From the NCBI GenBank assembly GCA_964019135.1, contig OZ025249.1:38971247-39035246 (forward strand): a stretch of 64,000 nucleotides of DNA, given 5' to 3'. The first letter of the stretch is position 1; each line of letters starts with the position of its first letter. The position numbers and the translations under genes are program-made. Under the pieces are notes generated by a model. That model was not told the DNA's origin. It saw only the letters and a list, made by a program, of their open reading frames with translations, and made no database searches. The stretch is from Arenicola marina. Lineage: Eukaryota; Annelida; Polychaeta; Arenicolidae. Below are positions 3,301 through 61,430 of the stretch, one piece after another.

Positions 3301-6300
3301 GGTGTATGTTATATACCTGCGATATTAGTACCTTGAGACCAGTTTGTAGTGGTTCCTTCACACCAGGTATGAAATAAAATAAAGGAAAGGAAGAATCTGT
3401 TTTGCTTTTTTAGGTGTCGTTATTGGCTCGAAGAAATTGTACTGAGGCTAATCAAGTCAATGGGGTTGAGAAAGTCACGTTACTGAGAAATGTTCCTGAA
3501 CTGTTTTGCTGGTGTGGACCTTTCATCAAGTGGATTTTTGTTGTTCTCCAGGGTGCGGCTTTCGGCTTTACGACGATAGCCAGCCAGGCGGGAGACCAGC
3601 TGGCACCGTACCTGGACAAGATCCTTCCCAAGTTGTATCGCTACCAATTTGACCCCAACCTCAAGATCCAACAGGCCATGACCAGCATCTGGAACGCGCT
3701 CGTGCCCAAGGCGAAAGATACCGTAAGCGAACAGCGGGCATATAACAACAGTCTAAGAGCTAGAAAATAAAAAGTGAAACCACAGGTACTGATATCATTA
3801 AAATTAATGGACATTGGCCGTAATTGCCAGCTGAATATTGACTTGTTTCTTACTCCGTGATACACTATAGGGTCAAAGCGTCCTGAATATACAACCAACC
3901 AATCTCTACACTATGGCCAAGCATCTTGATATTTAGGTGGCCTTCGCGCACTGACTGTACTGATTATAACTATTGCTGTCTAAGGTTCACTGATTTACAA
4001 GATGTGACATTTTCGGTACTTGCGTAGTACTCCGGTTTCCATAGTTTGTGGGACGCATATACGCCATATTGGCAATTCGTCTTGGCGTCAACCTGGACCA
4101 TGGGTCGCACGATAAAGATCCATTGTCTTTCTTCGTAAAGAGTAGGGGGTTACCCCCGATGACATGGCTCCAGTCTTCCTTCCTTCTCCCATTGGCGCGA
4201 TATGAGCAAAAGTGGTTCAAGCGTCCTGAATATACAACCAACTAATCAACCTGGACCATACACGCTCTAGAACCTCTTCAACTAGACCATAGTCAATGCA
4301 AGTAATCGCCCCTAATCCTAAATAATCCAAGTAAGAAATTGTTAACGTGAGTATAAATTCCGTTTAAAAATGTGCATTTAACATTTTGTGCGTCTTATGA
4401 CGGTTGGACTTTCAACGTTTGTGTACCGCGTGTCTGACCGTGTGACTACTCGGCAGGTGGACAAGTACGTGGTGCCTATTATGGACGACTTGCTGAAGAA
4501 CCTGGTCAGCAACCAGTGGAGGGTGCGAGAGTCGAGGTACGTCACTCAGGGGAACAGGTGGGGATGTCATAGCGGTGAACGAGATGGATCTGAAACAATC
4601 ACTGTATCACTGAAGAGAACAGGTGGTGAAAACCATTAGTTTGGGTGACAATTTTTATTGTGAACTCTTCTGGTTACACTTTGCCACAAGAAATCCGATA
4701 AAGAGAAGAGGTGGGGACTATCTACCATGGCGCCTACAGTTACGGCTATTATTTCATGTGGAAATACGGTTATTTGGTAAAACTGGTTGAAATGTTTGAT
4801 CCGGCGGTAAAGATGCGAGTGTTTATGCATGGAAAAAATATGTTCTGATTTTTTTTGGAAATGCATGGTTTACAGTAGCATCGTTTTCAGCGGCGTAGAT
4901 TATTAAATGTGCAGGTGTAGTCTCACTATAGTATATCATATTTTCTATGAATTAAGGTACAGAGGAATTTTGCATATGATGGTTTACGATCTAAGTTTGT
5001 TTCTTTTGATGACAAAGCCTTGCTGATGCATTCCTCAACAAATAACCAGCACTTTTAACAGGTATTTAAAAAAAAAAATAGTTCTTTAAATGCGTCTGAT
5101 TCGTAGCGTTTATCTGGTGCACATTTTCGCCCAAATTTACAGTAACTATGAAATAAATTATTGTGGAGCATCGCCGTTACATGGCATTGCGATGTATTGA
5201 ATCGCTAACTGTCGGAGGTTAAACTCTAATTGCTGTAAACGTTTTGTCCATAAATTACGGAGGAATGTTGCACATGATGGTTTACGATCTAAGTCTGAAT
5301 CATTTGCTGACAATATTTAGCTGATGCACTTTCCTTTTCACAAGTTACAACATGCTTGAACAAATTTGTTTCATAAAATAATATATTCACAGTAAAATGT
5401 AGAAGTGTATATGAAGTCTGTAGAAATTGTTATTTTATATTAAAGAATAATATAACTTCAAGGAATTTGGCATATCATGGTTTACGATCTAAGTCTGAAT
5501 CATTTGCTGACAATACTTTGCTGATGGAATTCCTTATCACGACTTGTGATACTTGAACACGTTTGTTTCATAGCATTTATAATTACGGTCAATTGTAGAA
5601 GTGCATATGTTTTCTGGATGAACTATTATTCATATTTAATATTTTGTTTAATCAGATAAAGTATAGGTATCTGTAGAGGAATTTTGCATGTGATGGTACA
5701 CGATCTAAGTCTGAATCATTTGCTGACAATACTTTGCTGATGCAATTCCTTATCGTGACTTTCGATATTTGAACACGTTTGTTTCATAACATTTATAATT
5801 ACGGTCAATTGTACAAGTGCATATGTATTCTGTAGGAAATATTATTCATATTAAATGTTTCATTTGATCAGGCACCTATATGTGCTGAGGAATTTTGCAT
5901 GTGATGGTTTACGATCTAAGTCTGACTCTTGTTGCTGACAATATTTTGCTGATGCAGTTTCTCTTTACGAATTATCAATTTGTTTATTAAGGAAAGTCAT
6001 TTTTGTACAGCCTAGGACTAACCTTACTCAGCTCATCCCCAATTTTTTTTGAACTGCAATGTCAAAGGAATTTTGCACATGATGGTTTACGATCTAAGTC
6101 TGAATCATTTGCTGACAATACTTTGCTGATGCATTTCCTTTGCACAAGTTACAACATGTTGGGCATACTTTAACAAGTTTGTTTCTTTAAATATATCATT
6201 ATAGTAAAATGTAGAAGTGCATATGTAGTCTGTATAAAAGTTTCATTTTTATATTAAGGACTGTTCTGTTCGATGAACTAAATCATTTGCTGACAATACC

Positions 6301-9300
6301 TTAAAAATTTAGTTAAAGGTTCAGAAGCGTAGATGCAGTTGGTAGATATCATATTAAACATTAGTGTTCCTTCTCAAGAGGAGGATTCTCGCTGGCTCAG
6401 TAGGGCCGCCCGATAGCTCAGTGGGTTAGAGTGCTAAATGCCAGCACTCTGGCAACACGAGAGCCTAAATTCACGTGGATCGGTGGTTCGCTCTCCGCTG
6501 TGGCCAGATCTGTGGGGTCACGGGATAAAGATCCCATGTCCTTCACAAAGAGTATAGGGTTACCCCGAGGACATGGCTCCGTTCTTCTCTTCCTTCTCCT
6601 ATTGACACGATATGACCAGAATTGGTTTAAGTGTTCTGAATATACAACGAAACCGAACCCTAGCTCAGTTATTACGCTGGCTCTGTTGCAGATCAACAGG
6701 TGATGGTATGTTCCATCCAACCCTATATCATTGTTCCTCGAGGCTTCTTGGCCCAGTTCCCTTAGCGTTCCTGTACACCAGTGGCATAGCGCACCAACTT
6801 TTAATTTCTATAAAGATACATTACAGAGGAATTATGCATATGATGGTGTACGATCTAAGTCTGATTTATTTGCTGACGAATCTTTGCTGATGCATTCCTC
6901 AACAAGTATTTTAATCGAGATCTTTTTAAAACATTATTTTTCGGCATGCGTATAATTCTTAACGACATGCGCTTTTGGAGCATACCGTCGTCCAAGTTGA
7001 CAAACTGTAAACTAACCAGATCAATAATTAAGCTTCACCATTCATATTTTGTACCGACTGGCCAGGGTCAGAGGGTTAACTCTCGAGAAAGTGCCTCTCG
7101 GAGAGCTCTTTCATATTAGTCTTCTTGTCGATGAATTACAGAGGAAAGTTGCATATAATGGTTTACGATCTATGTCTGAATCAGTTGTTGACCAAACTTT
7201 GCTGATTTTTTTTCCTTTTTTGCAAATTACCATCTTGCTTGGACTTAGTGATATATGTAGCAACAGCTTAAACGAGAGTTGAGGAATCATGCAATGATGT
7301 TTTTGCATGTCAGTCTGAAGTTGATGACACTTTCATTTCTGATGCAAGTTTCCTCATGTTAGTGTTCTTAAATTTACATTTTCTATATATTGGTTTCCGT
7401 TGATGACGACAGTGATATATGTAGCGACATTTTAGCAAAAGTTGAGGAATCATTGCAATGATGATTTTGCATGTCAGTCTGAAGTTGATGACACTATTTT
7501 CATTTCTGATGCAAGATTCCTCATGTTTGTGTTCTTAAATTAAAATATTCTAGAGATATATGTAGCAACATTTTAGCAAAAGTTGAGGAACCATTGCAAT
7601 GATGATTTTGCATGTCAGTCTGAAGTTGATGACACTAATTTCATTTCTGATGCAAGTTTCCTCATGTTAATGTTCTTAAATATACATTTTCTAGATATAG
7701 GTTTTCGTTGATGACGACAGTGATATATGTAGCGACATTTTAGCGAAAGTTGAGGAATCATGCAACAATGATTTTGCATGTCAGTCTGAAGTTGATGACA
7801 CTATTTTCATTTCTAATGCAAGTTTCCTCATGTTAGTGGGCGCATTTCTTTGGGCCAGGTTCGGTATCCCGCCCCGGGCCCGCAACACGTGACAAGGAAC
7901 TTCCGAGTATGCCGATAGGGATATGCCTATTCCAATGAAATGCACACACCGTTCCCATCCGGTGCACATTAAGGCACTGGAACCAACCTACTCTCATCAC
8001 CTTTCAATCAGCCGCCATCTTCTCCCGAATGCCCCTTGCTGTTTAGAACGGGGCACATCGGCATACCGAATGCATGCGCGCGCATCCATACCCGGGTGAA
8101 AGAAGTGTCGGGCGGTGAACCGATGCGTAATGTGCGTATTCGGTCCACCGTAGGGATACACCCGGGTTACCAAAGAAATGCGCCCAGTGTTCTTAAATTT
8201 ACATTTTCTATATATTGGTTTCTATTGATGACGACAGTGATATATGTAAGGACATTTTAGCAAAAGTTGAGGAATCATTGTAATGATGATTTTGCATGTC
8301 AGTCTGAAGTTGATGACACTATTTTCATTTCCGATGCAAGTTTCCTCATGTTGGTGTTCTTAAGTTTAAATATTCTAGATACTGATTTTCGTTGATGACG
8401 ACAATGATATATGTAGCAAAATTTTAGCGAAAGTTGAGGAATCATTGCAATGATGATTTTGCATGTCAGTCTGAAGTTGATGACACTATTTTCATTTCTG
8501 ATGCTAGTTTCCTCATGTTAGTGCTCTTAAATTTAAATATTCTAGATACTGGTTTTCGTTGAAGACGACAGTGATATATGTAGCGATAGTTTAGCAAAAG
8601 TTGAGGAATCATGCAATGATGATTTTGCATGTCAGTCTGAAGTTGATGACACTATTTTCATTTCTGATGCAAGTTTCCTCATGTTAGTGTTCTTAAATAT
8701 ACATTTTCTAGATATTGGTTTCCGTTGATGACGACAGTGATATATGTTGCGACAGTTTAGCGAAAGTTGAATCATTGCAATGATGATTTTGCATGTCAGT
8801 CTGAAGTTGATGCCACTATTTTTATTTCTGATGCGAGTTTTCTCATGTTAGTGTTTTTAAATACACATTTTCTTGATATTGGTTTCCGTTGATGACGACA
8901 GTGATATATGTAGCGACATTTTAGCGAAAGTTGAGGAATCACGCAATGATGATTTTGCATGTCAGTCTGAAGTTGATGACACTATTTTCATTTCTGATGC
9001 AAGTTTCCTCATGTTGGTGTTCTTAAATATACATTTTCTAGATATTGGTTTCCGTTGATGACGACAGTTATATATGTTGTGACAGTTCAGCGAAAGTTGA
9101 GGAATCATGCAATGATGATTTTGCATGTCAGTCTGAAGTTAATGACACTATTTTCATTTCTGATGCAAATTTCTTCATGTTGGTGTTCTTAAATATACAT
9201 TTTCTAGATATTGGTTTTCGTTGAAGACGACAGTGATATATGTAGCGACATTTTAGCGAAAGTTGAGGAATCATGCAATGATGATTTTGCATGTCAGTCT

Positions 9301-12300
9301 GAAGTTGATGACACTATTTTCATTTCTGATGCTATTTTCCTCATGTTGGTGTTAATTAAAATGTTCTAGATATTAGTTTTCGTTGATGACCGCAGTAATA
9401 TATGTAGAAACATTTTAGCGAAAGTTGAGGAATCATTGCAATGATGATTTTGCATGTCAGTCTGAAGTTGATGACACTATTTTCATTTCTGATGCTAGTT
9501 TCCTCATGTTGGTGTTTTTAAATTAAAATTTTCTAGATTCTGGTTTTCGTTGAAGACGACAGTGATATATGTAGCGATAGTTTAGCGAATGTTGAGGAAT
9601 CATGCAATGATGATTTTGCATGTCAGTCTGAAGTTGATGACACTATTTTCATTTCTGATGCAAGTTTCCTCATGTTAGTGTTCTTAAATATACATTTTCT
9701 AGATATTGGTTTCCGTTGATGACGACAGTGATATATGTTGCGACAGTTTAGCGAAAGTTGAGGAATCATGCAATGATGATTTTGCATGTCAGTCTGAAGT
9801 TGATGACACTATTTTCATTTCTGATGCAAGTTTCCTCATGTTAGTGTTGTTAAATATACATTTCTAGATCTTGGTTTCCGTTGATGACGACAGTGATATA
9901 TGTTGCGACAGTTTAGCGAAAGTTGAGGAATCATGCAATGATGATTTTGCATGTCAGTCTGAAGTTGATGACACTATTTTCATTTCTGATGCAAGTTTCC
10001 TCATGTTGGTGTTCTTAAATATACATTTTCTTGATATTGGTTTTCGTTGATGACGACAGTGATATATGTTGCGACAGTTTAGCGAAAGTTGAGGAATCAT
10101 TGCAATGATGATTTTGCATGTCAGTCTGAAGTTGATGACACTATTTTCATTTCTGATGCAAGTTTCCTCATGTTAGTGTTCTTAAATATGCATTTTCTAG
10201 ATATTGGTTTCCGTTGATGACGAGAGTGATATATGTAGCAACATTTTAGCGAAAGTTGAGGAATTATGCAATGATGATTTTGCATGTCAGTCTGAAGTTG
10301 ATGCCACTATTTTTATTTCTGATGCGAGTTTTCTCATGTTAGTGTTTTTAAATACACATTTTCTTGATATTGGTTTCCGTTGATGACGACAGTGATATAT
10401 GTAGCGACATTTTAGCGAAAGTTGAGGAATCACGCAATGATGATTTTGCATGTCAGTCTGAAGTTGATGACACTATTTTCATTTCTGATGCAAGTTTCCT
10501 CATGTTGGTGTTCTTAAATATACATTTTCTAGATATTGGTTTCCGTTGATGACGACAGTTATATATGTTGTGACAGTTCAGCGAAAGTTGAGGAATCATG
10601 CAATGATGATTTTGCATGTCAGTCTGAAGTTAATGACACTATTTTCATTTCTGATGCAAATTTCTTCATGTTGGTGTTCTTAAATATACATTTTCTAGAT
10701 ATTGGTTTTCGTTGAAGACGACAGTGATGTATGTAGCGACATTTTAGCGAAAGTTGAGGAATCATGCAATGATGATTTTGCATGTCAGTCTGAAGTTGAT
10801 GACACTATTTTCATTTCTGATGCTATTTTCCTCATGTTGGTGTTAATTAAAATGTTCTAGATATTAGTTTTCGTTGATGACCGCAGTAATATATGTAGAA
10901 ACATTTTAGCGAAAGTTGAGGAATCATTGCAATGATGATTTTGCATGTCAGTCTGAAGTTGATGACACTATTTTCATTTCTGATGCTAGTTTCCTCATGT
11001 TGGTGTTTTTAAATTAAAATTTTCTAGATTCTGGTTTTCGTTGAAGACGACAGTGATATATGTTGCGATAGTTTAGCGAATGTTGAGGAATCATGCAATG
11101 ATGATTTTGCATGTCAGTCTGAAGTTAATGACACTATTTTCATTTCTGATGCAAGTTTCCTCATGTTGTTCTTAAATATACATTTTCTAGATATTGGTTT
11201 CCGTTGATGACGACAGTGATATATGTTGCGACAGTTTAGCGAAAGTTGAGGAATCATGCAATGATGATTTTGCATGTCAGTCTGAAGTTGATGACACTAT
11301 TTTCATTTCTGATGCAAGTTTCCTCATGTTAGTGTTGTTAAATATACATTTCTAGATCTTGGTTTCCGTTGATGACGACAGTGATATATGTTGCGACAGT
11401 TTAGCGAAAGTTGAGGAATCATGCAATGATGATTTTGCATGTCAGTCTGAAGTTGATGACACTATTTTCATTTCTGATGCAAGTTTTCTCATGTTAGTGT
11501 TCTTAAATACACATTTTCTTGATATTGGTTTTCGTTGATGACGACAGTGATATATGTAGCAACTTTTTAGCGAAAGTTGAGGAATTATGCAATGATGATT
11601 TTGCATGTCAGTCTGAAGTTGATGCCACTATTTTTATTTCTGATGCGAATTTTCTCATGTTAGTGTTTTTAAATACACATTTTCTTGATATTGGTTTCCG
11701 TTGATGACGACAGTGATATATGTAGCGACATTTTAGCGAAAGTTGAGGAATCACGCAATGATGATTTTGCATGTCAGTCTGAAGTTGATGACACTATTTT
11801 CATTTCTGATGCAAGTTTCCTCATGTTGGTGTTCTTAAATTAAAATTTTCTAGATATTGGTTTTCGTTGAAGACGACAGTGATATATGTAGCGATAGTTT
11901 AGCGAAAGTTGAGGAATCATGCAATGATGATTTTGCATGTCAGTCTGAAGTTGATGACACTATTTTCATTTCTGAATGGAATGTTGGTGTTTTAGGCCAC
12001 TTTTGTGCACATACAGGCTAAATTGGGCCAAGGAACCTCCCGAAACGTTTCATTTCTGATGCTATTTTCCTCATGTTGGTGTTAATTAAAATGTTCTAGA
12101 TATTAGTTTTCGTTAATGACCGCAGTAATATATGTAGAACCATTTTAGCGAAAGTTGAGGAATCATTGCAATGATGATTTTGCATGTCAGTCTGAAGTTG
12201 ATGACACTATTTTCATTTCTGATGCAAGTTTCCTCATGTTAGTGTTCTTAAATATACATTTTCTAGATATTGGTTTCCGTTGATGACGACAGTGATATAT

Positions 12301-15300
12301 GTTGCGACAGTTTAACGGAAGTTGAGGAATCATGCAATGATGATTTTGCATGTCAGTCTGAAGTTGATGACACTATTTTCATTTCTGATGCAAGTTTCCT
12401 CATGTTAGTGTTGTTAAATATACATTTCTAGATATTGGTTTCCGTTGATGACGACAGTGATATATGTTGCGACAGTTTAGCGAAAGTTGAGGAATCATGC
12501 AATGATGATTTTGCATGTCAGTCTGAAGTTGATGACACTATTTTCATTTCTGATGCAAGTTTCCTCATGTTAGTGTTCTTAAATACACATTTTCTTGATA
12601 TTGGTTTCCGTTGATGACGACAGTGATATATGTAGCGACATTTTAGCGAAAGTTGAGGAATCATGCAATGATGATTTTGCATGTCAGTCTGAAGTTGATG
12701 ACACTATTTTCATTTCTGATGCAAGTTTCCTCATGTTGGTGTTTTTAAATTAAAATTTTCTAGATATTGGTTTTCGTTGAAGACGACAGTGATATATCTA
12801 GCGATAGTTTAGCGAAAGTTGAGGAATCATGCAATGATGATTTTTGCATGTCAGTCTGAAGTTAATGACACTATTTTCATTTCTGATGTAAGTTTCCTCA
12901 TGTTAGTGTTGTTAAATATACATTTCTAGATATTGGTTTCCGTTGATGACGACAGTGATATATGTTGCGACAGTTTAGCGAAAGTTGAGGAATCATGCAA
13001 TGATGATTTTGCATGTCAGTCTGAAGTTGATGACACTATTTTCATTTCTGATGCAAGTTTCCTCATGTTGGTGTTCTTAAATTTAAATTTTCTAGATATA
13101 AGTTTTCGTTAATGACGACGGTGATATATGTTGCGACAGTTTGGCGGAAGTTGAGGAATCATGCAATGATGATTTTGCATGTCAGTCTGAAGTTGATGAC
13201 ACTATTTTCCTTTCTGATGCAAATTTCTTCATGTTTGTGTTCATAAATATACATTTTCTTGATATTGGTTTTCGTTGATGACGACAGTGATATTTGTAGG
13301 GATATTTTAGCGAAAGTTGAGGAATCATGCAATGATGATTTTGCATGTCAGTCTGAAGTTGATGCCACTATTTTCATTTCTGATGCAAATTTTTCCATGT
13401 TAGTGTTCTGAATTATGCATTTTCTAGATATTGGTTTCCGTTGATGACGACAGTGATATATGAAGCGATAGTTTAGCGAAAGTGGAAGAATCATGCAATG
13501 ATGATTTTGCATGTCAGTCTCAAGTTGATGACACTATTTTCATTTCTGATGCAAGTTTCCTTATGTTGGTGCTTACGTTTTTAAGATTTACGTTGATAAA
13601 GGCAGTAATATATGTAGCAACATTTTAGCGTTTCATGTTAGTGTTTTTCATGTTGGTGTTCTTAAATTAATTTTTTAAGTAAAAATATAAATTTTCCTTA
13701 ATGTTCATGACGATAGTTACATAGTACAGGGAGCAACAGTTGAATGAAAGTTGAGGAATCGTGCATGTCGCAGATGTTCTGACGTTGATGACAACTATTT
13801 CTGATGCGAGATTCCTAAAAAAAATTCAAGTTAGTGTTCTCTTTTTAAAGACTAGTAGAAGCATTACTGTCCTCCTGACAATCACTAGCAACCAGTCACT
13901 CACACATATATCTCTCACTCGGTTCTCTGTATTATGGTCCATAGCATGTCTCACTCGTCCTCGTCGTTATCACTCATCATGTGAATATCACAAACCACAC
14001 AGACATGGCCACAGCGGGGCGCGAATCACCGATCCACGTGCCGTTAGGCTCTCAGGTGGCCAAAATACTCAAGGCGAGCGCTCTAACCCAGCCAGCTATT
14101 GAGGCGGCCCCCAGTCACTTTTGTTGTGTCTATCACATCTGTCTGTATGGTGCTCTACATCATGTACTCAGTGACCTCACAGTGACCTCTGTCCTGTATC
14201 ACACAGCTGTCTGTATGGTGCTCTACATCATGTACTCAGTGACCTCACAGGGACCTCTGTCCTGTATCACACATCTGTCTGTATGGTGCTCTACATCATG
14301 TACTCAGTGACCTCACAGTGACCTCTGTCCTGTATCACACAGCTGTCTGTATGGTGCTCTACATCATGTACTCAGTGACCTCACAGGGACCTCTGTCCTG
14401 TATCACACAGCTGTCTGTATGGTGCTCTACATCATGTACTCAGTGACCTCACAGTGACCTCTGTCCTGTATCACATAGCTGTCTGTATGGTGCTCTACAT
14501 CATGTACTCAGTGACCTCACAGTGACCTCTGTCCTGTATCACACAGCTGTCTGTAAGGTGCTCTACATCATGTACTCAGTGACCTCACAGTGACCTCTGT
14601 CCTGTATCACACAGCTGTCTGTATGGTGCTCTACATCATGTACTCAGTGACCTCACAGTGACCTCTGTCCTGTATCACACAGCTGTCTGTATGGTGCTCT
14701 ACATCATGTAATCAGTGACCTCACAGTGACCTCTGTCCTGTATCACATAGCTGTCTGTATGGTGCTCTACATCATGTACTCAGTGACCTCACAGTGACCT
14801 CTGTCCTGTATCACACAGCTGTCTGCATGGTGCTCTACATCATGTACTCAGTGACCTCACAGTGACCTCTGTCCTGTATCACACAGCTGTCTGTATGGTG
14901 CTCTACATCATGTACTCAGTGACCTCACAGTGACCTCACAGTGACCTCTGTCCTGTATCACATAGCTGTCTGTATGGTGCTCTACATCATGTACTCAGTG
15001 ACCTCACAGTGACCTCTGTCCTGTATCACATAGCGGTCTGTATGGTGCTCTACATCATGTACTCAGTGACCTCACAGTGACCTCTGTCCTGTATCACACA
15101 GCTGTCTGTATGGTGCTCTACATCATGTAATCAGTGACCTCACAGTGACCTCTGTCCTGTATCACATAGCTGTCTGTATGGTGCTCTACATCATGTACTC
15201 AGTGACCTCACAGTGACCTCTGTCCTGTATCACACAGCTGTCTGCATGGTGCTCTACATCATGTACTCAGTGACCTCACAGTGACCTCTGTCCTGTATCA

Positions 15301-18300
15301 CACAGCTGTCTGTATGGTGCTCTACATCATGTAATCAGTGACCTCACAGTGACCTCTGTCCTGTATCACATAGCTGTCTGTATGGTGCTCTACATCATGT
15401 ACTCAGTGACCTCACAGTGACCTCTGTCCTGTATCACACAGCTGTCTGCATGGTGCTCTACATCATGTACTCAGTGACCTCACAGTGACCTCTGTCCTGT
15501 ATCACACAGCTGTCTGTATGGTGCTCTACATCATGTACTCAGTGACCTCACAGTGACCTCACAGTGACCTCTGTCCTGTATCACATAGCTGTCTGTATGG
15601 TGCTCTACATCATGTACTCAGTGACCTCACAGTGACCTCTGTCCTGTATCACATAGCGGTCTGTATGGTGCTCTACATCATGTACTCAGTGACCTCACAG
15701 TGACCTCTGTCCTGTATCACATAGCTGTTTGTATGGTGCTCTACATCATGTACTCAGTGACCTCACAGTGACCTCTGTCCTGTATCACACAGCTGTCTGT
15801 ATGGTGCTCTACATCATGTACTCAGTGACCTCACAGTGACCTCTGTCCTGTATCACATAGCTGTGTGTATGGTGCTCTACATCATGTACTCAGTGACCTC
15901 ACAGTGACCTCTGTCCTGTATCACATAGCGGTCTGTATGGTGCTCTACATCATGTACTCAGTGACCTCACAGTGACCTCTGTCCTGTATCACACAGCTGT
16001 CTGTATGGTGCTCTACATCATGTACTCAGTGACCTCACAGTGACCTCTGTCCTGTATCACACAGCTGTCTGTATGGTGCTCTACATCATGTACTCAGTGA
16101 CCTCACAGTGACCTCTGTCCCGTATCATACAGCTGTCTGTATGGTGCGCTACATCATGTACTCAGTGACCTCACAGTGACCTCTGTCCTGTATCACACAG
16201 CTGTCTGTATGGTGCTCTACATCATGTACTCAGTGACCTCACAGTGACCTCTGTCCTGTATCACACAGCTGTCTGTATGGTGCTCTACATCATGTACTCA
16301 GTGACCTCACAGTGACCTCTGTCCTGTATCACATAGCTGTCTGTATGGTGCTCTACATCATGTACTCAGTGACCTCACAGTGACCTCTGTCCTGTATCAC
16401 ACAGCTGTCTGTAAGGTGCTCTACATCATGTACTCAGTGACCTCACAGTGACCTCTGTCCTGTATCACACAGCTGTCTGTATGGTGCTCTACATCATGTA
16501 CTCAGTGACCTCACAGTGACCTCTGTCCTGTATCACACAGCTGTCTGTATGGTGCTCTACATCATGTAATCAGTGACCTCACAGTGACCTCTGTCCTGTA
16601 TCACATAGCTGTCTGTATGGTGCTCTACATCATGTACTCAGTGACCTCACAGTGACCTCTGTCCTGTATCACACAGCTGTCTGCATGGTGCTCTACATCA
16701 TGTACTCAGTGACCTCACAGTGACCTCTGTCCTGTATCACACAGCTGTCTGTATGGTGCTCTACATCATGTACTCAGTGACCTCACAGTGACCTCACAGT
16801 GACCTCTGTCCTGTATCACATAGCTGTCTGTATGGTGCTCTACATCATGTACTCAGTGACCTCACAGTGACCTCTGTCCTGTATCACATAGCGGTCTGTA
16901 TGGTGCTCTACATCATGTACTCAGTGACCTCACAGTGACCTCTGTCCTGTATCACACAGCTGTCTGTATGGTGCTCTACATCATGTAATCAGTGACCTCA
17001 CAGTGACCTCTGTCCTGTATCACATAGCTGTCTGTATGGTGCTCTACATCATGTACTCAGTGACCTCACAGTGACCTCTGTCCTGTATCACACAGCTGTC
17101 TGCATGGTGCTCTACATCATGTACTCAGTGACCTCACAGTGACCTCTGTCCTGTATCACACAGCTGTCTGTATGGTGCTCTACATCATGTAATCAGTGAC
17201 CTCACAGTGACCTCTGTCCTGTATCACATAGCTGTCTGTATGGTGCTCTACATCATGTACTCAGTGACCTCACAGTGACCTCTGTCCTGTATCACACAGC
17301 TGTCTGCATGGTGCTCTACATCATGTACTCAGTGACCTCACAGTGACCTCTGTCCTGTATCACACAGCTGTCTGTATGGTGCTCTACATCATGTACTCAG
17401 TGACCTCACAGTGACCTCACAGTGACCTCTGTCCTGTATCACATAGCTGTCTGTATGGTGCTCTACATCATGTACTCAGTGACCTCACAGTGACCTCTGT
17501 CCTGTATCACATAGCGGTCTGTATGGTGCTCTACATCATGTACTCAGTGACCTCACAGTGACCTCTGTCCTGTATCACATAGCTGTTTGTATGGTGCTCT
17601 ACATCATGTACTCAGTGACCTCACAGTGACCTCTGTCCTGTATCACACAGCTGTCTGTATGGTGCTCTACATCATGTACTCAGTGACCTCACAGTGACCT
17701 CTGTCCTGTATCACATAGCTGTGTGTATGGTGCTCTACATCATGTACTCAGTGACCTCACAGTGACCTCTGTCCTGTATCACATAGCGGTCTGTATGGTG
17801 CTCTACATCATGTACTCAGTGACCTCACAGTGACCTCTGTCCTGTATCACACAGCTGTCTGTATGGTGCTCTACATCATGTACTCAGTGACCTCACAGTG
17901 ACCTCTGTCCTGTATCACACAGCTGTCTGTATGGTGCTCTACATCATGTACTCAGTGACCTCACAGTGACCTCTGTCCCGTATCATACAGCTGTCTGTAT
18001 GGTGCGCTACATCATGTACTCAGTGACCTCACAGTGACCTCTGTCCTGTATCACACAGCTGTCTGTATGGTGCTCTACATCATGTACTCAGTGACCTCAC
18101 AGTGACCTCTGTCCTGTATCACACAGCTGTCTGTATGGTGCTCTACATCATGTACTCAGTGACCTCACAGTGACCTCTGTCCTGTATCACACAGCTGTCT
18201 GTATGGTGCTCTACATCATGTACTCAGTGACGTCACATGACGCCTATCCTATCCCTCACACAGTTGTCTGGCGGTCAGCGATCTGCTCCGTGGCCGCGTC

Positions 18301-21300
18301 CTGGATCCCGTGATTCAGCGACTCCCGGAGCTCTGGGATACCATGTTTCGCGTCCGGGATGACATCAAGGAGACTGTCCGGAACGCCGCGGACATCGCCG
18401 TCAAGAGTCTCAGCAGGGTGACTATACTCACCCCCAGCCCCACCCAGGCCCAAGCGGTGACGGGTTCGCACCCCACCGTGGGTGCGTGGGGCCGTAGGAC
18501 CCTTCCGTCGCATTGTCCCATGGGTTACTCTGCCCCGTCAAGCAATTGTATGCTCACACGTGGTTTGAAACCCCAATTTATCCATGAATTTGTGCAGCGA
18601 ACGTAACTAATTTGTATTAGAAAAAATGTCTAAACTACATGACTATTGAGGGTAGGGAAGTGACTATTTAAGCCACGATATCAATACCAGTCTGTAAACC
18701 AGTATATAAACTATTTATATATATATAAAAATATGACGTATTTATGGTAATATCACCATGATAACAGCGAAATTATGGCTGTCCGTCTTCCATGTCAACC
18801 CCCGGCAAAGTCTGTTATTATAATAAACGTAAGTGTGAGTAATACGTGAGTTATGTGTCGCGCTCGATGACAACCAACTACCCATTTCTCGATATCGCGT
18901 TCGTTACCCTGAGTGACCGTGTGGTTTATCTCGACAGGCGAGCATCAAGCTGTGTGACCCGGAGTATGGCGGCAAGGTGGCGGGAGAGGCGACCAGTCTC
19001 ATCCTGCCCTGCCTCCTCAAGTCAGGACTGGGCAGCCAGGTGCAGGAGGTCAGGGCCATCAGGTAGGAGGGACCGGAATAGCTATGTGACTCTGGTTTGT
19101 GTGCAGCTAACTGACCGTTATATCATTTAAAACTATATTAATTAACAACATAACCCCATGTCGCATTCACTCGGTGTAACGATACACAAACGAACTTTCG
19201 TTAGTGGTCAATATTATTGGTTTGTACCGAATCTGTTACTGTGCCTCTTACAATGTAGTTATTGTACGTTTAAATCTGCTGTTGAACCAGAAACATCTTT
19301 AGATGTCACACTTGCTAAGATACACCGCAAAGCTCTCAACAAATTACGGCGCTCAAACCATTATGTACGGAATATTCAAATGTAAAGCCTGGATAACATA
19401 TCACATACGAAATACGGAAAAAACTTGTCCCCTCAACCTCTGCCCGGGGGCCGGCCCGGTAGCTCAGTGTGCTAGAGCGTTCGCCTTGAGTGTTTTGGCC
19501 AACTGAGAGCCTAACGGCACGTGGATCGGTGGTTCGCGCCCCGCTGTGGTCATGTCTGTGTGGTCGCAGGATAAAGATCCTATGTCCTTCTTCGCAAAGA
19601 GTAGGGGGTTACCCCCGGGGACATGGCTTCGCTCTTCCCTTTATTCTCCCATTGCCGCGATATGACCAAAAGTGGTTAAAGCCTCCTGAATATACAACCA
19701 ACGAATCTCCGTGTCCGCAGCCTGAGCACTATCCTGAAGGTGAGCCGGACGGCGGGAGTCCTGCTCAAGCCACACATCCCACTACTGGTCGTCGCTCTGC
19801 TCGAGTCCCTCAGCACGCTGGAGCCACAGTACCTCAACTACGTGGCTCTGCACGCCGCCTCCAGCCAGGTCACCCAGGAGAAGGTACGTACTGGGGGAGG
19901 GGGGGGCGGGGAGGGAGGGGGGTCTACTACAGTACCTCAACTACGTGGCTCTGCACGCCGCCTCCAGCCAGGTCACCCAGGAGAAGGTACGTACTGGGGG
20001 AGGGAGGGGGGTCTACCACAGTACCTCAACTACGTGGCTCTGCACGCCGCCTCCAGCCAGGTCACCCAGGAGAAGGTACGTACTGGGGGAGGGAGGGGGG
20101 TCTACCACAGTACCTCAACTACGTGGCTCTGCACGCCGCCTCCAGCCAGGTCACCCAGGAGAAGGTATGTACTGGGGGAGGGAGAGGGGGGGGGGGCTTC
20201 TAAGAGGGACTCATTTAGTAACCTGTGATAACATACCGCGACAATTATGGAACTGGATGTTATGATGAACGAGCCATGTCTGTTTGGCGGGGTCACCCAT
20301 TCATTTGTTTTTGTCGTCGGATTTAATTGTAATTAAATTATCTGATCTTTAACTTATAGTATTATGTTAACCTTTGTGAATTCTACTTATCGAGAGCTCT
20401 ATGTAACTATAACTATAATATGGCCACATAAATGGCTTGCTATATTCTGTTATCGTCGTACGATATGTTATTACATATATTAAAGGCTTCTCTGCGCCAA
20501 ATGTCCAATGGATATGGAATTGTATGTATTTTGTGGCTGTCCCGGCAGCAAAATCACGTGTGTGCGTGACGAAGACTGATTTCTTACCGTAAGACGTCTG
20601 GTTCATATGCTTCGTTCTCTCACAGTTGGATAACGCGCGCGTTGCTGCCTCGAAGACTTCGCCAATGATGGAGGTTGTAAACATGGTAGGATACGCTTAT
20701 CTTTGTCTACAAGGGGCCGGCCCGGTAGTGGGCATTGAGTGCTCTGGCCACCTGTGAGCCTAACGGCACGTGGATCGGTCGTTCGCGCCCCGCTGTGGCC
20801 ATGTCGGTGTGGTCGCCGGATAAAGATCCCATGTCCTTTTTCGTAACGAGTAGGGGGTTACCCCCGGGGACATGGCTCCACTCTCCCTTCCTTCTTCCAT
20901 TGACGCGATATGAAGTGGTTAAATCGTCCTGAATATACAACCAACCAATGCTTTGTCTACATATAAGTTATTATTAAATATCTAGATTGGCGAATAGTTT
21001 AAAATCTCCTCATTAAAAACCAAGTTGTAATATCGTTGGAGAGCAATAATGCTAACTCTACATTATGTACTTGTAGCTTCTGCTGAATGTCGGTATTATT
21101 CATTGTCCTCTCCCCTCACCATATGACATGTATATTGTGACGTCATTGCAGTGTGTGCAGTACGTGGACGATGACGTGTTGAAGGAGCTCATACCACGTG
21201 TCCGTGACGTCATCAAGCAGAATGTGGGCCTGGGCACCAAGGTCAGATTCTCGTCTCACTGAACAAGTTGACGGTCGATATTTCGCTCTTTTCGGGAGAG

Positions 21301-24300
21301 ACTCCATGGCTGAGTGGGGGGGCCTCCCTGGTGTAGTGGTTAGCGCACTAGACCGCAGATCAATAGGTCCTGGGTTCGAATCCGGGCTCGGGCACCTAAT
21401 CTGGGGCATGTTTCATTCCTTCATCCTTCATCGTCTCGGGAGGTTCCTTGGCCCAATTTAGCCTGTATGTGCACAAAAGTGGCCTAAAACACCAACATTC
21501 CATTCCATGGCTGAGTGGTAGAACCCTCGACTGCAGATCAATAGGTCCCTGGTTCAAAACCCGGTTTGGGTGATCAAGTCTGGATCATATTGTTCATCCA
21601 AACCATTCATCGTCCCCGAAGGTTCCTTGGCCCAGTTATAACAATTATTTAATTTCCTCTAACTCCACTCACTATCCCAGGAGGTTTTATCGTCCAGTAT
21701 AGCTTTCCTGAGCACATGAGTAGCACGAAACGTCTCATTTGAGTCCCAGGGACCTATCTGGTGTAGTAGTTAACACATTAGGCCGCACACCAATAAGTCC
21801 TGGGTTGGAATCCGCACCTAAGCTGGGCATGTCTCATCCATTCATAACTCATCGTCCCGGGAGGTGCTTTGGCACAGTTTAGCCCTTGTGTGGACAACAA
21901 GCGACCCAAAACGCCAATTCATGTAATTTAAGTTCAGTTCTTCCATAATCGAACACAATATTATTTATTACGTATCGTTGTATGTGTACAATTATTTTTG
22001 CTGTAATGTTTGCTTCTTTTAAATTTGATCAGAATATTTGGCCTGCCCGCTATATTATATAAAACCATGTATGTATGAAGTTATCTATATCCCGCCCTTG
22101 GCGGTGTTGGGGTATATAGCCAGTGAGTCGTTGTGTTTCAGGCTGGCTGCGCCAATCTGATCGTGTCGCTGACTCATCAGTGTCCCCACCAGCTGGCGTC
22201 TCACTCAGGTATGGCGTCGTGAAAGGTGGATTTCCTGATGGTTTAGATAATTCAAAGCTAGTGAAAGTGAACTTAAAAGGCTGATCTCGAACCTAAATCG
22301 ATATTACAGAACGAAGTTTATATTTTAGTCAATGGACCTGCAAAAATAAAGGCCTTCTGCATTGTTGAACGGCACCTTACTCTCTGCGTGCTATTGAACA
22401 CCTATATTAGCGTTATATGTTAGGCACAACACTGGTTCAATTCCTTTTTTTGAAAAGGCAAAATTCGTCAACCGTTTAGTACTCCGTGTTGCTTTCTGTT
22501 TAGAACACTTCTTCGCGCGCCTCTCATCTTACAGTTTATCACAAATATCAATTCGCCAAAGTTTAGCGTAACGTCATGCTAGATTGACCGATGTTAGCTC
22601 GGCTCTGGATGCTATACAAGATCTCTTGGTACGATATAGTCTGTGGGAATGTAAAGAAAAACATGCAATGAAATGTTAAACGCCGAATTATCTTGTCTCT
22701 CGTGCTCAGGAAAACTTCTCAGTGTGTTGTTGAACGGGCTGCACGACAGAAACACCACAGTGCGGAGGTCCTATGCCTCTGCCATCGGACACCTAGCCAA
22801 GGTAAGGTACAGTTACTAAGTGGGCTTCCTCTTAATGATCTTAGTAGTGAATTTTATGTACCGTTTCGCCCCAGATTACTGCCCCGAATAGTGCTTGGGT
22901 CGGTATCCTTTATTTGTCACGCGCTAAAGCTGATAAATGCACTGTCCCTTACACCGCCATGGTCTTGCGAAGCCTTGTGGTTTGTAGACGTCGGGACGAG
23001 CCGATTCTGTGGTCCGTAGAACATCCCTTGCGTGATAAAACGGTTCTATAAAGAGTCAACCAGCGAGGCTTCTGAAATCCTCTACATACTCACCGTTGTA
23101 ATGCGTCTCAGTGGTTCTACGTTACACATTCCGGCGGCCGGCCTCCCGGGGGCCGACAGCTGCATAACGCGTAACCACGCAACGGCGGTTCTTCCGAGGC
23201 TTAGGTCTGACTGGTTATGTAAGACAGATCTCATCAGTTAAACTGAATTTGAGAAAAGAAATGACGTTTTCTTCTAGATCTATCAGGAGCTTCACTTTTA
23301 TTGGTTGTTTTAAATTCTAATATGGAGGACAGAGCGCTTGGATGATGCTACTGTTTCGCATTGGGTGCATCTGTCTGTTTAGGTATGGTGTGCCCCATAT
23401 GCAATGTATATTGAATGTTAACACTGATCCGAAGATTTGTTTATCTTATTTCAGATCTCAAAAGACAGCAGCGTGGAGAAGTTGATTTCTCGACTGAGCG
23501 AATGGTACATGGAGAAAGAAGGTAGTGTGATTACTTGTACATCACTAGTACAACTATGACATTGCTGGCTTTTCCTGTAGAGATTACCTAAGTGTATCAT
23601 GGCTAAGAAGTATGCTAGACCTAGCTAGGTTACCTGACCCAACCATTATACATTACATGAATAATCTGGTGCTGAAAGTGCCGTCACTGACCTGGTTGTT
23701 GGTACAGATTTTCAGTGCATATGTTTGTTCATTGGCCTTTCATCGCACCAGCGTCGTGTAGATATAGGAAAACCACGTGTTCCTTGTCTGTGATGATCCA
23801 GAGGAGTCGATCCGGAAGGCATGCGGCCTGAGCCTGTATAAGTCTATACAGTTAACCACGTGTTCCTTGTCTGTGATGATCCAGAGGAGTCGATCCGGAA
23901 GGCGTGCGGCCTGAGCCTGTATAAGTCTATATAGTTAACCACGTGTTCCTTGTCTGTGGTGATCCAGAGGAGTCGATCCGGAAAGCGTGCGGCCTGACCC
24001 TGTATAAATCTATATAGTTGACCACGTGTTCCTTGTCCGTGGTGATCCAGAGGAGTCGATCCGGAAGGCGTGCGGCCTGAGCCTGTATAAGTCTATATAG
24101 TTAACCACGTGTTCCTTGTCTGTGGTGATCCAGAGGAGTCGATCCGGAAGGCGTGCGGCCTGAGCCTGTATAAGTCTATATAGTTAACCACGTGTTCCTT
24201 GTCCGTGGTGATCCAGAGGAGTCGATCCGGAAGGCGTGCGGCCTGAGCCTGTATAAGTCTATATAGTTAACCACGTGTTCCTTGTCTGTGGTTATTCAGA

Positions 24301-27300
24301 GGAGTCGATCCGGAAGGCGTGCGGCCTGAGCCTGTATAAGTCTATATAGTTAACCACGTGTTCCTTGTCTGTGGTGATCCAGAGGAGTCGATCCGGAAAG
24401 CGTGCGGCCTGACCCTGTATAAGTCTATATATTTGACCACGTGTTCCTTGTCTGTGGTGATCCAGAAGAGTCGATCCGGAAGGCGTGCGGCCTGACCCTG
24501 TATAAGTCTATATAGTTGACCACGTGTTCCTTGTCTGTGGTGATCCAGAAGAGTCGATCCGGAAGGCGTGCGGCCTGACCCTGTATAAATCTATATAGTT
24601 AACCACGTGTTTCTTGTCTGTGGTGATCCAGATGAGTCGATCCGGAAAGCGTGCGGCCTGACCCTGCACGCCATTAACCAGCAGGCCCCGGACGTCCTGA
24701 AGAGCCACGGAGCGGCCGCCCTCCCGCTGGCCTTTCTCGCCATGCACGAGAAACCCCCAGGTATGTGATCCGGGGGGTGGGGGGGTCGGCCCGGGCCCTG
24801 GGTATCAGCGTGACCAGATAGATCTTGGTGGGGTGCAGTTTAAGTGTGTTTTGCTAAAATCCTTGCCTTTCATGCAGTTGTTCGATTGCAAATGACGTCA
24901 CAAGTCAGTTCCTGGATATTGACTCCTTGTGCCACGATGGATGAAATTTGTACAATACGCCACGTAGACATGGGGTATAAGCTATATCACTATTAAGTAT
25001 TCGGTGTAATTATTACTCATACGATAAACGACTAATTTACGCCATTTAACGTCATTTGCGTGCAATATGCATATTAAACGTCACTGTTGCCCAGTTTGAA
25101 ATGAAGTGACCGTTTCTCGTTCCGTCAGAGGGGACTTCAACAGACAAGAAGACCTCGTTATGGGAGGAAGTATGGCTGGATGCTACGCCGGGTAAGCTAC
25201 CGTCCATTCCGGGAGTTCACCTCTCGCGAATGAATTTTATTTGATCTCTGGACCTTTATATATATCCTTGTAACCGCCAGACCCACACTACCGTAGAACC
25301 GCCGTTGCGTGTTCAAGCGGTGTGCAGTTGTAGGCCCAGAAAGGCCGGCCACCCGACTATCCTAGAACCGCCGTTGCGTGTTCATGCGGTGTGCATGTGC
25401 AGAACCCAGAATGCTGCCGTTTGGCTATTTATAGCAACGATTTAGCACACACTGGGGATTCTACGCTACTCCCGGCCTCTCGGGGCCTGCAAATCGCTAC
25501 GCATTACAAGGCACCGGCGGTTGAAAGGATATAGGTATACCTTTCTTTGATAAGTCGAATACTTTTCGAACGTGCAACAGCGAAGTAGAAATAAATTTAA
25601 ATAACAAGGACCACTTGTAATAACTTTCTTTTACACTCCATCCCACGTGACAGGCAGCGAGGGCGGAGTGCGCCTGTACCTGACGGAGCTGGTGGATCTC
25701 ACGCAGAGGGCGCTACAATCGCAGTCCTGGCCAATGAAGGCGCAAGCGGCCAGCGCCATGGCAACCATGGCGGACAAGCTCAAGGCCAACCTGGGTCCCC
25801 CTTACTTGGGGCTCCTGCTGGGGGCCCTCCTGGGTGGCCTGCCCGGGCGAACCTGGACCGGCAAGGTAGAATTGGCCACAGGGTGCTTCTCTATAGAGTA
25901 AAGTAACGAAAGGCGATTGTACCGTACGTCATGTTGAAACTGCTGATACAACAATTTTTCACCTGCAATATGATTTTCTTTTGGAGACCTGTTTTGGACA
26001 GTATTTGTTTTGGGTGGGGCGTGGGGGGGGGTGGTAAAGAGTAGGGGGCTTGTCTGGTCAGTCAGCTCGAAAGCTTTTGTAGCGGTAGCCACCATAGGAT
26101 GCGTGTAAGGGGCAGGGTGGGGTAAGGTCAGCACACAGTATTTGGCTTCCTTGCTTCCTGTCAAACAAAGCCTGACACGAGTTTAAAGGAATCGGTCGAG
26201 CGGGAGGGGGAGGGGGGAGGTGTCACAAACTTAGCCTCTTCGTATACAAGAAAGCCGCACACGGGATGCTCGAGCGGCCCAAAGCATCAATTCGTGTCAT
26301 TCATTTCCATCTATTAGCCAAAGAGATAAACAGCTTAATGGTACTTATTCGCTCACATCATATCGTGTCTTTGGTTGTAGAACTCCTTGTTGGAAGCACT
26401 TGCGACGGTGTGCTTGGCTTGCAAGTGAGTCACCTTTCATGTCGCGTTCCACATGTAGACATTTAGACTTTTCTATATACTTTATGTTTTCATTTTATTC
26501 ATAATACTCTTCTTATATTTTTTAAATGACTGGTATTCTTAATAATTCATTTGATTGATTAATGAATACTTCATTTTATTCATGTTATAATGAATATGTT
26601 ATTATTTTGTATAATTGATCATAAAACTAAATTTGAATGCATTTAATTGTTCAGTTTAATGCGCTTGTAAAGCTCCGAAATATGCTAACGAGGTTCAACT
26701 TGCTCTGCGCAGAGATGCCATGCGCACGGCACGCGACGGGCAAGCGTCCATCGATGACGTCATAAGCGCCCTGCTCAAGGAGGCCAGGAAAGACAACCTT
26801 ATGTACAAGATGGACGCTCTGCGTCACGTGACCGACATCCTGGAGGCCTATGAGGTGGACAACTTCCGGGACATCCACGAAATCCTCCAGCCAATGCTAG
26901 CCAAGGTGAAGGTCATTCAGAGAGTTGCCTGTCCAACATACGTATGGGTATTTTTTTTTATTCTGCGATGGGTTATGATGAGATAAATGCGGAATAACGA
27001 AGACACTTGTTTTCCGTACCTGAGTGTGGAAACATTGCATGTTATACAATGCCTAATAGACTACCTATGCAAGTGTACAATTCAATTTTACCTGCCATGA
27101 CCCTCACCTGCCACGACTCTACGATATATTTTCATGGCCAACGGCTCTGCCATGACCCGCGTTCCCTGGCTCTACCATTTCATTCATAACCTGGTTCTCT
27201 TCTTCACTGTCTTGCCCTGCCATGACCGGGGCCGGCGCAATAGCTCAGCGAGCTAGAGCGCTCGCCCTGAGTGCTCTGGTCACCTGCGAGCCTAACGGCA

Positions 27301-51650: not shown

Positions 51651-53081
51651 CTAGAAGACGCCCGGGATCATTTTGTAGGGGACCTTCTGGCAGTACTTCT
51701 TCCAGTAGCGACCGTACTTATTGCCACACTTGGTATCGTCGCGGAAGGTTCTGTGGGTCAGCAGCAAGCAGAGCCAGATGAAGTAGCTATAAACCATGGC
51801 GTTCTCGAACAGGGCCGGCACGCTCCACAGGAAGGCCAGCATCAGCTCCGGGATGTAGTGGAAGTGCCTGGCGATGCCCCAGTAGCCGTTGACCAGCAGA
51901 AGACTCTCGCGGGTCTCGCCGCTCTCCAGCCGGTACGTGGCGCGGATCACCTCCGCCTTGCCGCCCCACACCGCGCACCGCCCCTGGCTGCGGCGCACGT
52001 CCAGCTTCTGCTTGTCCGCCAGGTAGTTGACCGCCAGGCAGGCCGTGCCCGCCGCCAGGATCGCCAGGCTCCAGAACGGCCCCAGGTGGACTGGGTGGTT
52101 GACCATGTACATGCTGACGGACCCATACAGGCCGGCGACGTAGGCCAGGCAGCCCCAGCAGATGTAGAATCCGGCGCGGTCCAGCATGATATCGATTGTG
52201 CGCATGTAACCAGACTCCCACCAGAAGAACTTGGTGAAGTACATCATCTGCAGGGCGGTGGACACCCAGATACTGTCGACGAAGCCGTACAGCTCGTAAC
52301 TCTTGACGGCGAAGATGAGGACGAGCAGAGGCCAGACGGTCATACCGAAGCGGCAGTTGGTGAACACCTTGACGTCCACCCCGAGCACGCGAGGGTAGAG
52401 CTCCGTGCCCCAGTAGTAGTCGAAGATCGGATTCCCGGACGAGCCGCAGTCCGTGGTCGAGGGTAAGTAGATCCCCTTCAGGTAGAGCACGATACAGATC
52501 AGGTGGCTAAACACCGTGAGCGACCCGAGAAATTCGTCGAAGCGGTCGTAGACGATAGTGGTGGACATGCCCTTCTGCTTCAGGCCGTAGGTCAGCACCA
52601 CGAAGGCCACGATGGTGACCACGTAGCAGAAGAAGCCGTTGTCCTTATACACGGGGACGTTGCCCTTGGGGGTGACGGGCCCTTCCGACCGGGGCCCCGG
52701 CAGGGTCACCTGCAGCAGGACCGCGAAGAGCCCGTACCCCAGGATGATGTAGCCGATCAGGGCGCTGCTGATGTGGATCTCAGACCAGATGTTGGCCAGC
52801 CCGGTCAGGATGCCGTGCTCCGTCAGCCGCTCGCCCAGGACCATCACGCTGCCGTCGCATTTCGTGGCCGTGTACCACAGCAGGATGACCAGGTTAGGCG
52901 AGAAGGCCATGAGGAAGAGCGGCATCAGGGTCTGGTAGAGGAAGCGCTCCCACGCGGTCAGAGGCAGCTCCGCCGCCGGTTTCCCGGCAGGGGCGCCACT
53001 GTCGTAGTCGTTCTGGGCGGGCGCGGCGGCTCCGTTCATCTCGCCGCCGTTCCTGGCTTGCTGACGCCTAGTCTTCGCCAT
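51651..53081 (-). CDS. DHCR7: Sterol delta-7 reductase (7-dehydrocholesterol reductase), copy 1
   Basis: This is an ERG4/ERG24-family membrane enzyme of the ER. It uses NADPH to reduce the C7-C8 double bond of 7-dehydrosterols, the last step towards cholesterol in one branch. It has 476 residues in one coding exon, with many hydrophobic helices from ~50 to the C-terminus. Motifs: GPVTPKGNVPVYKDNG 134-149, KVFTNCRFGM 238-247, DRAGFYICWG 301-310, NHPVHLG 328-334, GRCAVWG 367-373, GYWGIARHFHY 399-409 (family signature near the NADPH site), KYGRYWKKYC 455-464, ending IPGVF. These blocks match remembered Arabidopsis DWF5 more closely than human DHCR7; TM7SF2/LBR fit less well. The ATG follows AATATATTTCAG/AGTCCTC, so a 5' UTR intron is likely. 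It is in tandem with copy 2. The N-terminal ~40 residues are polar and specific to this copy. Confidence 0.93.
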   Translation of the reverse strand: MAKTRRQQARNGGEMNGAAAPAQNDYDSGAPAGKPAAELPLTAWERFLYQTLMPLFLMAFSPNLVILLWYTATKCDGSVMVLGERLTEHGILTGLANIWSEIHISSALIGYIILGYGLFAVLLQVTLPGPRSEGPVTPKGNVPVYKDNGFFCYVVTIVAFVVLTYGLKQKGMSTTIVYDRFDEFLGSLTVFSHLICIVLYLKGIYLPSTTDCGSSGNPIFDYYWGTELYPRVLGVDVKVFTNCRFGMTVWPLLVLIFAVKSYELYGFVDSIWVSTALQMMYFTKFFWWESGYMRTIDIMLDRAGFYICWGCLAYVAGLYGSVSMYMVNHPVHLGPFWSLAILAAGTACLAVNYLADKQKLDVRRSQGRCAVWGGKAEVIRATYRLESGETRESLLLVNGYWGIARHFHYIPELMLAFLWSVPALFENAMVYSYFIWLCLLLTHRTFRDDTKCGNKYGRYWKKYCQKVPYKMIPGVF

Positions 53082-61365: not shown

Positions 61366-61420
61366 TCTAGACCTGTCAATGACAAACACAAGAGTGAATT
61401 GATCGATCAATGCCACGCTA

Positions 61421-61430
61421 TATAAAGGTT
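61421..61430 (-). promoter_or_regulatory. TATA-like box for sterol reductase copy 2
   Basis: On the minus strand CTTTATATAG lies ~55-65 bp upstream of the ATG at 61365, which would place transcription start near 61395. The other strand reads CTATATAAAG, equally TATA-like, so the direction is not certain. Confidence 0.4.

Follow-up and report, generated by a model that had tools for sequence, protein, structure and literature searches.

Two families of box C/D small nucleolar RNA-like units with predicted ribosomal RNA targets in one ECM29 intron of Arenicola marina

The rule in animals is one small nucleolar RNA (snoRNA) per intron (PMC11028025; statements credited to the literature here and below rest on excerpts of the sources cited). 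A stretch of 64,000 nucleotides (nt) from the polychaete Arenicola marina (contig OZ025249.1, positions 38,971,247 to 39,035,246 of the forward strand) raises the question of how several dozen box C/D snoRNA-like units could be released from a single intron, here of the gene ECM29. We call the whole of this stretch the window and number positions from its first letter. A preliminary description, made from the letters of the window, had labelled the units orphan and asked how they are released. Our analysis indicates that the intron probably encodes a functional, amplified pair of guide families for ribosomal RNA (rRNA) methylation: a large tandem array, family A, with a guide aimed by pairing at 28S, and a smaller and more diverged family upstream of it, family B, with a guide aimed at 18S.

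Peptides read from the exons on both sides of the array match, when joined, the Pfam domain HEAT_ECM29 (E=3.2e-31), and the reading frame, followed by hand, is kept across the junction of the 13,727-bp intron. A search of PDB sequences with the exon peptides matched one 2898-residue chain (8i9x_LR, E=2.2e-8); no match was named ECM29. Between the two splice sites lie 45 copies of the two families, all on the + strand, which is the coding strand of ECM29. The arrangement is that of an intronic snoRNA gene cluster, with more than one snoRNA-like unit per spliceosomal intron in sense orientation.

For family A, an nhmmer search with the 78-nt core yields 37 copies, every one of them on the + strand; 36 of these are strong (E<=4.9e-14) and one is decayed (E=0.0024). 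The claim of about 37 tandem box C/D-like genes in one ECM29 intron is therefore upheld, as are the order of the parts, the boxes and the stem of GAGGAA/TTCCTC plus TGCA that had been described for each unit. The 5' half reads GAGGAA-TCA-TGCA, box C (ATGATGA), the D' guide TTTTGCATGTCAGT, box D' (CTGA) and AGT; the 3' half reads box C' (TGATGA), the D guide CACTATTTTCATTT, box D (CTGA) and TGCA-AGT-TTCCTC. With the decayed copy entered as failing, boxes C and D, which define the class (RUGAUGA and CUGA), are exact in 33 of 37 copies, the guide plus D' box in 35/37, and all four boxes in 24/37, against the 23 perfect copies reported earlier. Variants include C' boxes reading TAATGA or TGATGC and a D guide with TTTTTATTT, and damaged copies lie towards the edges of the array (7294, 7765, 8283, 13498 and 13751). 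Tandem Repeats Finder resolves the array into 22.9 and 9.2 copies with a period of 166 and two copies with a period of 141 at 7414-7699. When the animal's own genome (867 Mb) was searched, BLAST with the A core gave at least 36 matches, and a 42-nt pattern allowing up to two mismatches gave at least 26; every one of these lies in the array. Three further nhmmer matches of the A core (E 0.04-0.095) are copies of family B.

Family B, which the preliminary description did not contain, consists of eight dispersed copies, and 6257-6316 may be a relic (E=0.13). The approximate layout is GAGGAATTTTGCAT, ATGATGG, TTTACGATCTAAGT, CTGA, an intervening stretch, CTGA and TGCAATTCCTC; ACGATCTA is retained in all eight copies and ACGATCTAAGTCTGA in six. 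Boxes C, D' and D are in place in 5/8 copies, and box D reads CTGA in 8/8. BLAST of the B core against the same genome gave at least eight matches, with eight of eight here and no other match seen. A permissive cmscan search of 3.8 kb gave Rfam snoZ17 as the top match, to five B copies (E 0.0056-0.13). All five remain below the gathering score, so that by this measure family B is not a member of snoZ17/SNORD4 (31.3 bits at best vs 44). The features of the intron are collected in Table 1.

Table 1. Coordinates of the two families and related features within the window
Feature	Position	Strand	Remarks
ECM29 intron with both arrays	4537..18263	+	GT at 4537 to AG at 18263; flanking exons HEAT_ECM29
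Family B	4962..7219	+	copies at 4962, 5260, 5460, 5676, 5887, 6065, 6826, 7141; D' guide predicted to target 18S A121
Best snoZ17 match among B copies	6833..6896	+	31.3 bits, E=0.0056; gathering score 44
Family A array	7281..13816	+	78-nt C/D unit, ~166-bp period; D' guide predicted to be aimed at 28S
Foldback (MITE-like; miniature inverted-repeat transposable element) insertion splitting an A linker	7835..8189	+	inverted GGCGCATTTCTTTGG ends, AGTG on both sides
Higher-order duplication in A array	8186..11975	+	8186-10488 vs 9677-11975, 95.9%, shift of ~9 units
Representative intact A unit	8603..8680	+	stem GAGGAA..TGCA / TGCA..TTCCTC; sub-coordinates counted by hand
Same unit, box C	8616-8622		first half
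Same unit, D' guide	8623-8636		first half
Same unit, box D'	8637-8640		first half
Same unit, box C'	8644-8649		second half
Same unit, D guide	8650-8663		second half
Same unit, box D	8664-8667		second half
Terminal decayed family A copy	13756..13816	+	nhmmer E=0.0024

Are these copies maintained as snoRNA units, or are they a satellite that happens to contain one? The same intron carries a satellite with some 60 copies of a 68-bp unit, other tandem arrays in ECM29 even copy pieces of exon, the A array contains a large internal duplication, and its edge copies are damaged. All of this would suit a locus formed mostly by satellite expansion, with one true snoRNA gene or a handful, and most A copies as non-expressed passengers, which we regard as a genuine but minority possibility. 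Homogenisation, however, should affect the whole unit, and the substitutions are not so distributed. Parsimony was applied to 33 A units (30 distinct) of the 36, two insertion-bearing units and the terminal unit at 13485 being left out. The D' guide (14 sites) and D' box show no change at all, followed by box C (0.14 changes per site), the D guide (0.21), box D (0.25) and the 5' stem arm (0.46), and then by box C' (0.83), the 3' stem arm (0.92) and the linkers (0.98). Boxes plus D' guide average 0.20 changes per site vs 0.98 for the linkers (Mann-Whitney p 4.6e-5), and an invariant run of 22 nt has a permutation p of 0.0005; these p values are guides only, because homogenisation undermines the independence of sites among tandem copies. 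Moreover, the guide plus D' box has been kept in all but two of the 37 copies. Selection is visible in family B as well, where the bodies are on average 0.86 identical and the 85-nt flanks 0.37 and 0.42. The preliminary description had proposed, as a test across species, whether boxes and stem mutate at the same rate as linkers. Among the copies of this one genome the rates are unequal for the boxes taken with the D' guide, but box C' and the 3' stem arm come close to the linkers, although the stem still pairs.

Indeed, a terminal stem with a predicted free energy of -6 or below, adjoining boxes C and D, is formed by 35/36 strong A copies and by 8/8 B copies; control flanks form one in 2/36 and 0/8 cases, respectively. 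The stem arms of A and B are near-identical in pairwise alignment. Since the C/D class does not demand such similarity, we infer that the two families share an ancestor and that the D' guide changed in the course of descent; they are probably paralogues.

The invariant D' guide of family A forms 12 or more base pairs with CTGACGTGCAAATCG, a universal motif of 28S, in the 28S of other eukaryotes. The Rfam consensus of the large subunit (LSU) rRNA contains CUGACGUGCAAAUCG, and this consensus and metazoan 28S primers contain CTGACGTGCAAATCG or most of it. Primers D3 (GACGATCGATTTGCACGTCA; PMC3625178, PMC13294684) and LSUB (ACGAACGATTTGCACGTCAG; PMC11377719) both resemble the A guide, so in molluscs and annelids 28S primers are placed on the target motif. 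As stand-ins we used stretches of eukaryotic 28S in twelve microbial-genome records, retrieved by the motif itself, and cmscan confirmed LSU in 8/8 of the records scanned; a scan of viral contigs for the motif found nothing. Across the four LSUs scanned whole, the A site ranks first, with a score of 12-12.5 vs 7.5-8.5 for the runner-up and 13 positions paired in a row. Shuffled guides reached the score of the A site in 4, 4, 0 and 0 of 400 trials.

The register of this pairing can be read against yeast 25S, which has seven methylated positions between 805 and 908, among them Am876, guided by snR72 (PMC5199042). When these seven sites were fitted as a ladder to the stand-in LSUs, the sole placement agreeing in all letters put Am876 on the paired A in 4/6 LSUs. 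Of the other two, L021 agrees in 6/7 letters at the Am876 register and has its one full placement elsewhere, and the divergent L027 agrees in 4/7 letters there and has no full placement. Counted by hand, the target is position 889 of the Rfam LSU model. The consensus of Rfam snoZ122, with UUUGCACGUCAGUCUGA, is nearly the A guide in the same register, and plant snoR72Y has been named as the counterpart of yeast snR72 (PMC2780460). Family A is thereby predicted, from pairing in stand-in 28S, to guide methylation of the LSU nucleotide equivalent to Am876; this would require the animal's own 28S to contain CTGACGTGCAAA. Other candidate targets were rejected. As an A-guide target, 18S gave at best 9.0 (L032, equalled by 139/400 shuffles) and 7.0 (L031), and the animal's own partial 18S gave 9.5 (35/400 shuffles), vs 12-12.5 in LSUs. 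The 28S assignment Am1133/Am1871 was dismissed because Psi1124, the position used as a check of the register (PMC2806949), would land on G in 6/6 LSUs, while the Am876 ladder fits 4/6. U6 was dropped on a mid-guide mismatch, without a search.

Family B is predicted to address the small subunit. Its guide pairs through 11 consecutive bases, CCTTAGATCGTACA, with the animal's own 18S as found in the rDNA-like stretches L011 and L012. Counting five nucleotides from box D' leads to index 121 of this 18S, an A, and shuffled guides equalled the pairing in 6/400 trials over the 951 nt of own 18S that were scanned. snoZ17/SNORD4 is a guide for U121 of 18S. Human Um121 and plant Um123 are tabulated among 18S methylations (PMC11542601). 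Judged by pairing, nucleotide 121 of 18S would be the B target. For both families, then, the fifth nucleotide of the guide duplex falls on a predicted methylation site, in own 18S for B and in the 28S of other eukaryotes for A, as expected of putative methylation guides. The two rDNA-like stretches, on small contigs C101 and C686, appear disrupted or rearranged beyond the 5' portion of 18S.

The label 'orphan' is not sustained by these targets: the D' guide of A has a good site in 28S, and the second family in the intron is aimed at 18S. Copies acting on mRNAs or proteins, as SNORD115/116 do, would nevertheless recall the copy number of SNORD113-116, and the D guide CACTATTTTCATTT, at 0.21 changes per site, has no convincing rRNA target. 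We consider this highly unlikely, since the most conserved element of the unit, the D' guide, fits a universal 28S site that is methylated in yeast and plants.

Several observations weigh against an rRNA-guide function for the two families. No 28S was found when the animal's own was sought in its genome. The stand-ins, having been retrieved by the motif, contain it by design, so that only rank and register test the A site, and our confidence is slightly lowered on this account. The A duplex includes one or two G:U pairs, and in a table where plant Am885 and yeast Am876 share a row, the human entry is blank (PMC11542601). For the B guide, scores of 11.0 and 9.5 also arise in the LSU of another organism (L021, 18/400 shuffles) and in the small subunit rRNA of L032 (41/400 shuffles), respectively, and its own-18S test covered 951 nt only. 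The D guides of A and B gave no convincing target in the rRNA scans. Box C ends in G in 8/8 B copies, and 3/8 have a broken box (D' at 4976; C at 5474 and 7155), so that family B appears to satisfy the definition by C and D boxes only loosely. In an Infernal search (cmscan), which had been suggested as a check, no Rfam family reached its gathering threshold anywhere in the window, and even at permissive thresholds A copies matched snoZ17 only at E 1.1 or worse. Sequence search gives little evidence for kinship of A and B (E 0.013 at best, with a B query), and the shared boxes help even this match. As for the stem, the 3' arm of A changes as often as the linkers, and arms of one copy pair hardly more stably than arms taken from different copies (A -12.4 vs -12.5, B -11.1 vs -10.4), so covariation is weak. 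Lastly, four complete cores are barely more stable when folded than their shuffled versions (z -0.77 to -1.26), a slight excess that may fit short C/D RNAs with one stem.

The problem of release, posed in the preliminary description for dozens of units in one intron, stands. Vertebrate work has described snoRNA-protein particle (snoRNP) assembly coupled to splicing distance. From the end of the last strong A copy it is 4.7 kb to the 3' splice site, a distance at which such coupling could hardly serve the array. None of five folded linkers contains a stable hairpin of the kind that is a substrate for RNase III (z -0.29 to +1.49), and GTRAGT occurs in 0/35 A linkers. Exonucleases alone would halt at the outermost particles, so the inner copies need an endonuclease or stay joined.

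Splicing within the array would be one way out. In an SNHG-like host, tiny non-coding exons in the linkers would give each copy an intron of its own, and a possible 3' splice site, TTTCTAG or ATTCTAG, is present in 23/35 linkers. Seven of the 35 read TTTCTTG instead, and GTRAGT is absent from all of them (weaker 5' splice sites were outside this search); linker micro-exons are not conserved, and we find this explanation barely credible. Another is that only the outermost copies mature and the exonuclease-trimmed intron persists as something like a snoRNA-ended long non-coding RNA (sno-lncRNA) of about 45 units. Such RNAs have been described (PMC11028025). The many snoRNA-like units in the intron, the five hairpin-free linkers and the missing GTRAGT would agree with this. 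Multi-snoRNA introns of rice and Drosophila, on the other hand, yield single snoRNAs, which makes an outermost-only output unlikely here; the existence of these introns is cited in PMC2780460. If the 13.7-kb intron were left undiced, it might form a giant poly-snoRNP of up to 45 C/D particles on one strand, a multivalent nucleolar scaffold that would deliver the 18S and 28S guides together, an outcome that we view as distinctly unlikely.

The reading that we favour is that of two rRNA-guide families released as separate RNAs. Family B, with eight more diverged copies, would direct 2'-O-methylation to 18S A121 in the manner of SNORD4/snoZ17. Family A would have arisen, probably from a common ancestor, by tandem duplication with a change of the D' guide, and would guide methylation of the 28S nucleotide that corresponds to yeast Am876, the snR72 site. 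Its amplification would have proceeded by unequal exchange, partly as a block of about nine units, with selection retaining guide and boxes. Both arrays would be transcribed within the ECM29 pre-mRNA, and C/D proteins would assemble on the stem-closed units, the terminal stem and not splicing distance nucleating the snoRNP. The inner copies would then be freed by an endonuclease cutting the linkers.

Other repeats lie in and around the intron. The 68-bp satellite, at 14134-18241, takes up the intron's 3' portion and almost reaches the splice site. Downstream, an 89-bp repeat of about three copies (19908-20190) copies a piece of an ECM29 exon together with its 5' splice site, and an 83-bp repeat of about 11 copies (23771-24666) repeats the beginning of an ECM29 exon, whose remainder, by eye, follows on the final copy at about 24605. 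Text resembling the foldback insertion of Table 1 lies near 32700 and suggests, again by eye, a second copy in the window. Two long minus-strand frames, 51654-53132 (493 codons) and 59932-61530 (533 codons), look like paralogues by eye. A tRNA scan found none.

Human SNORD4 copies lie in RPL23A introns. Family B resembles snoZ17/SNORD4 (RF00266) in its C/D layout, in a D' guide predicted to act at 18S 121 and in having it as best Rfam match; it differs in scoring below the gathering threshold, in a guide that matches the A, instead of U, found at 121 of this animal's 18S and in its eight copies in an ECM29 intron. Family A is likened to snR72/snoR72Y by target only, being aimed through pairing at the same LSU nucleotide (yeast Am876); unlike them it seems to be a paralogue of B whose guide has changed, and it has 37 copies. 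With dozens of tandem, partly homogenised C/D copies, the locus also recalls SNORD113-116 and rat Bsr. In SNORD113-116, each intron of a non-coding host has a single copy. In contrast, many copies here share one intron of protein-coding ECM29, have predicted rRNA targets and, with GTRAGT in none of 35 linkers, do not form an array of the SNORD113-116 type; SNORD113-116 and Bsr lie in mammalian imprinted domains (PMC11028025). The likeness to intronic clusters of rice and Drosophila is that several snoRNAs share one intron (cited in PMC2780460); intronic snoRNA clusters are also reported in Drosophila hosts (PMC13228274), and two snoRNAs in one Plasmodium intron (PMC2656528). The rice and Drosophila clusters are small ones, whereas in the ECM29 intron the two families together number 45 copies. 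Among the titles and abstract openings listed, with most subscription journals outside the search, no ECM29-hosted or comparable single-intron array was found. One review names large C/D tandem repeats in mammals only, SNORD113-116 and rat Bsr, and expects others in understudied genomes (PMC11028025); the present locus would be one such repeat outside mammals. Because its copies share one intron, their release must work differently; because the guides have known rRNA sites, dosage should be readable as methylation; and because a diverged family lies beside an amplified one, a switch of guide by duplication may be traced in place.

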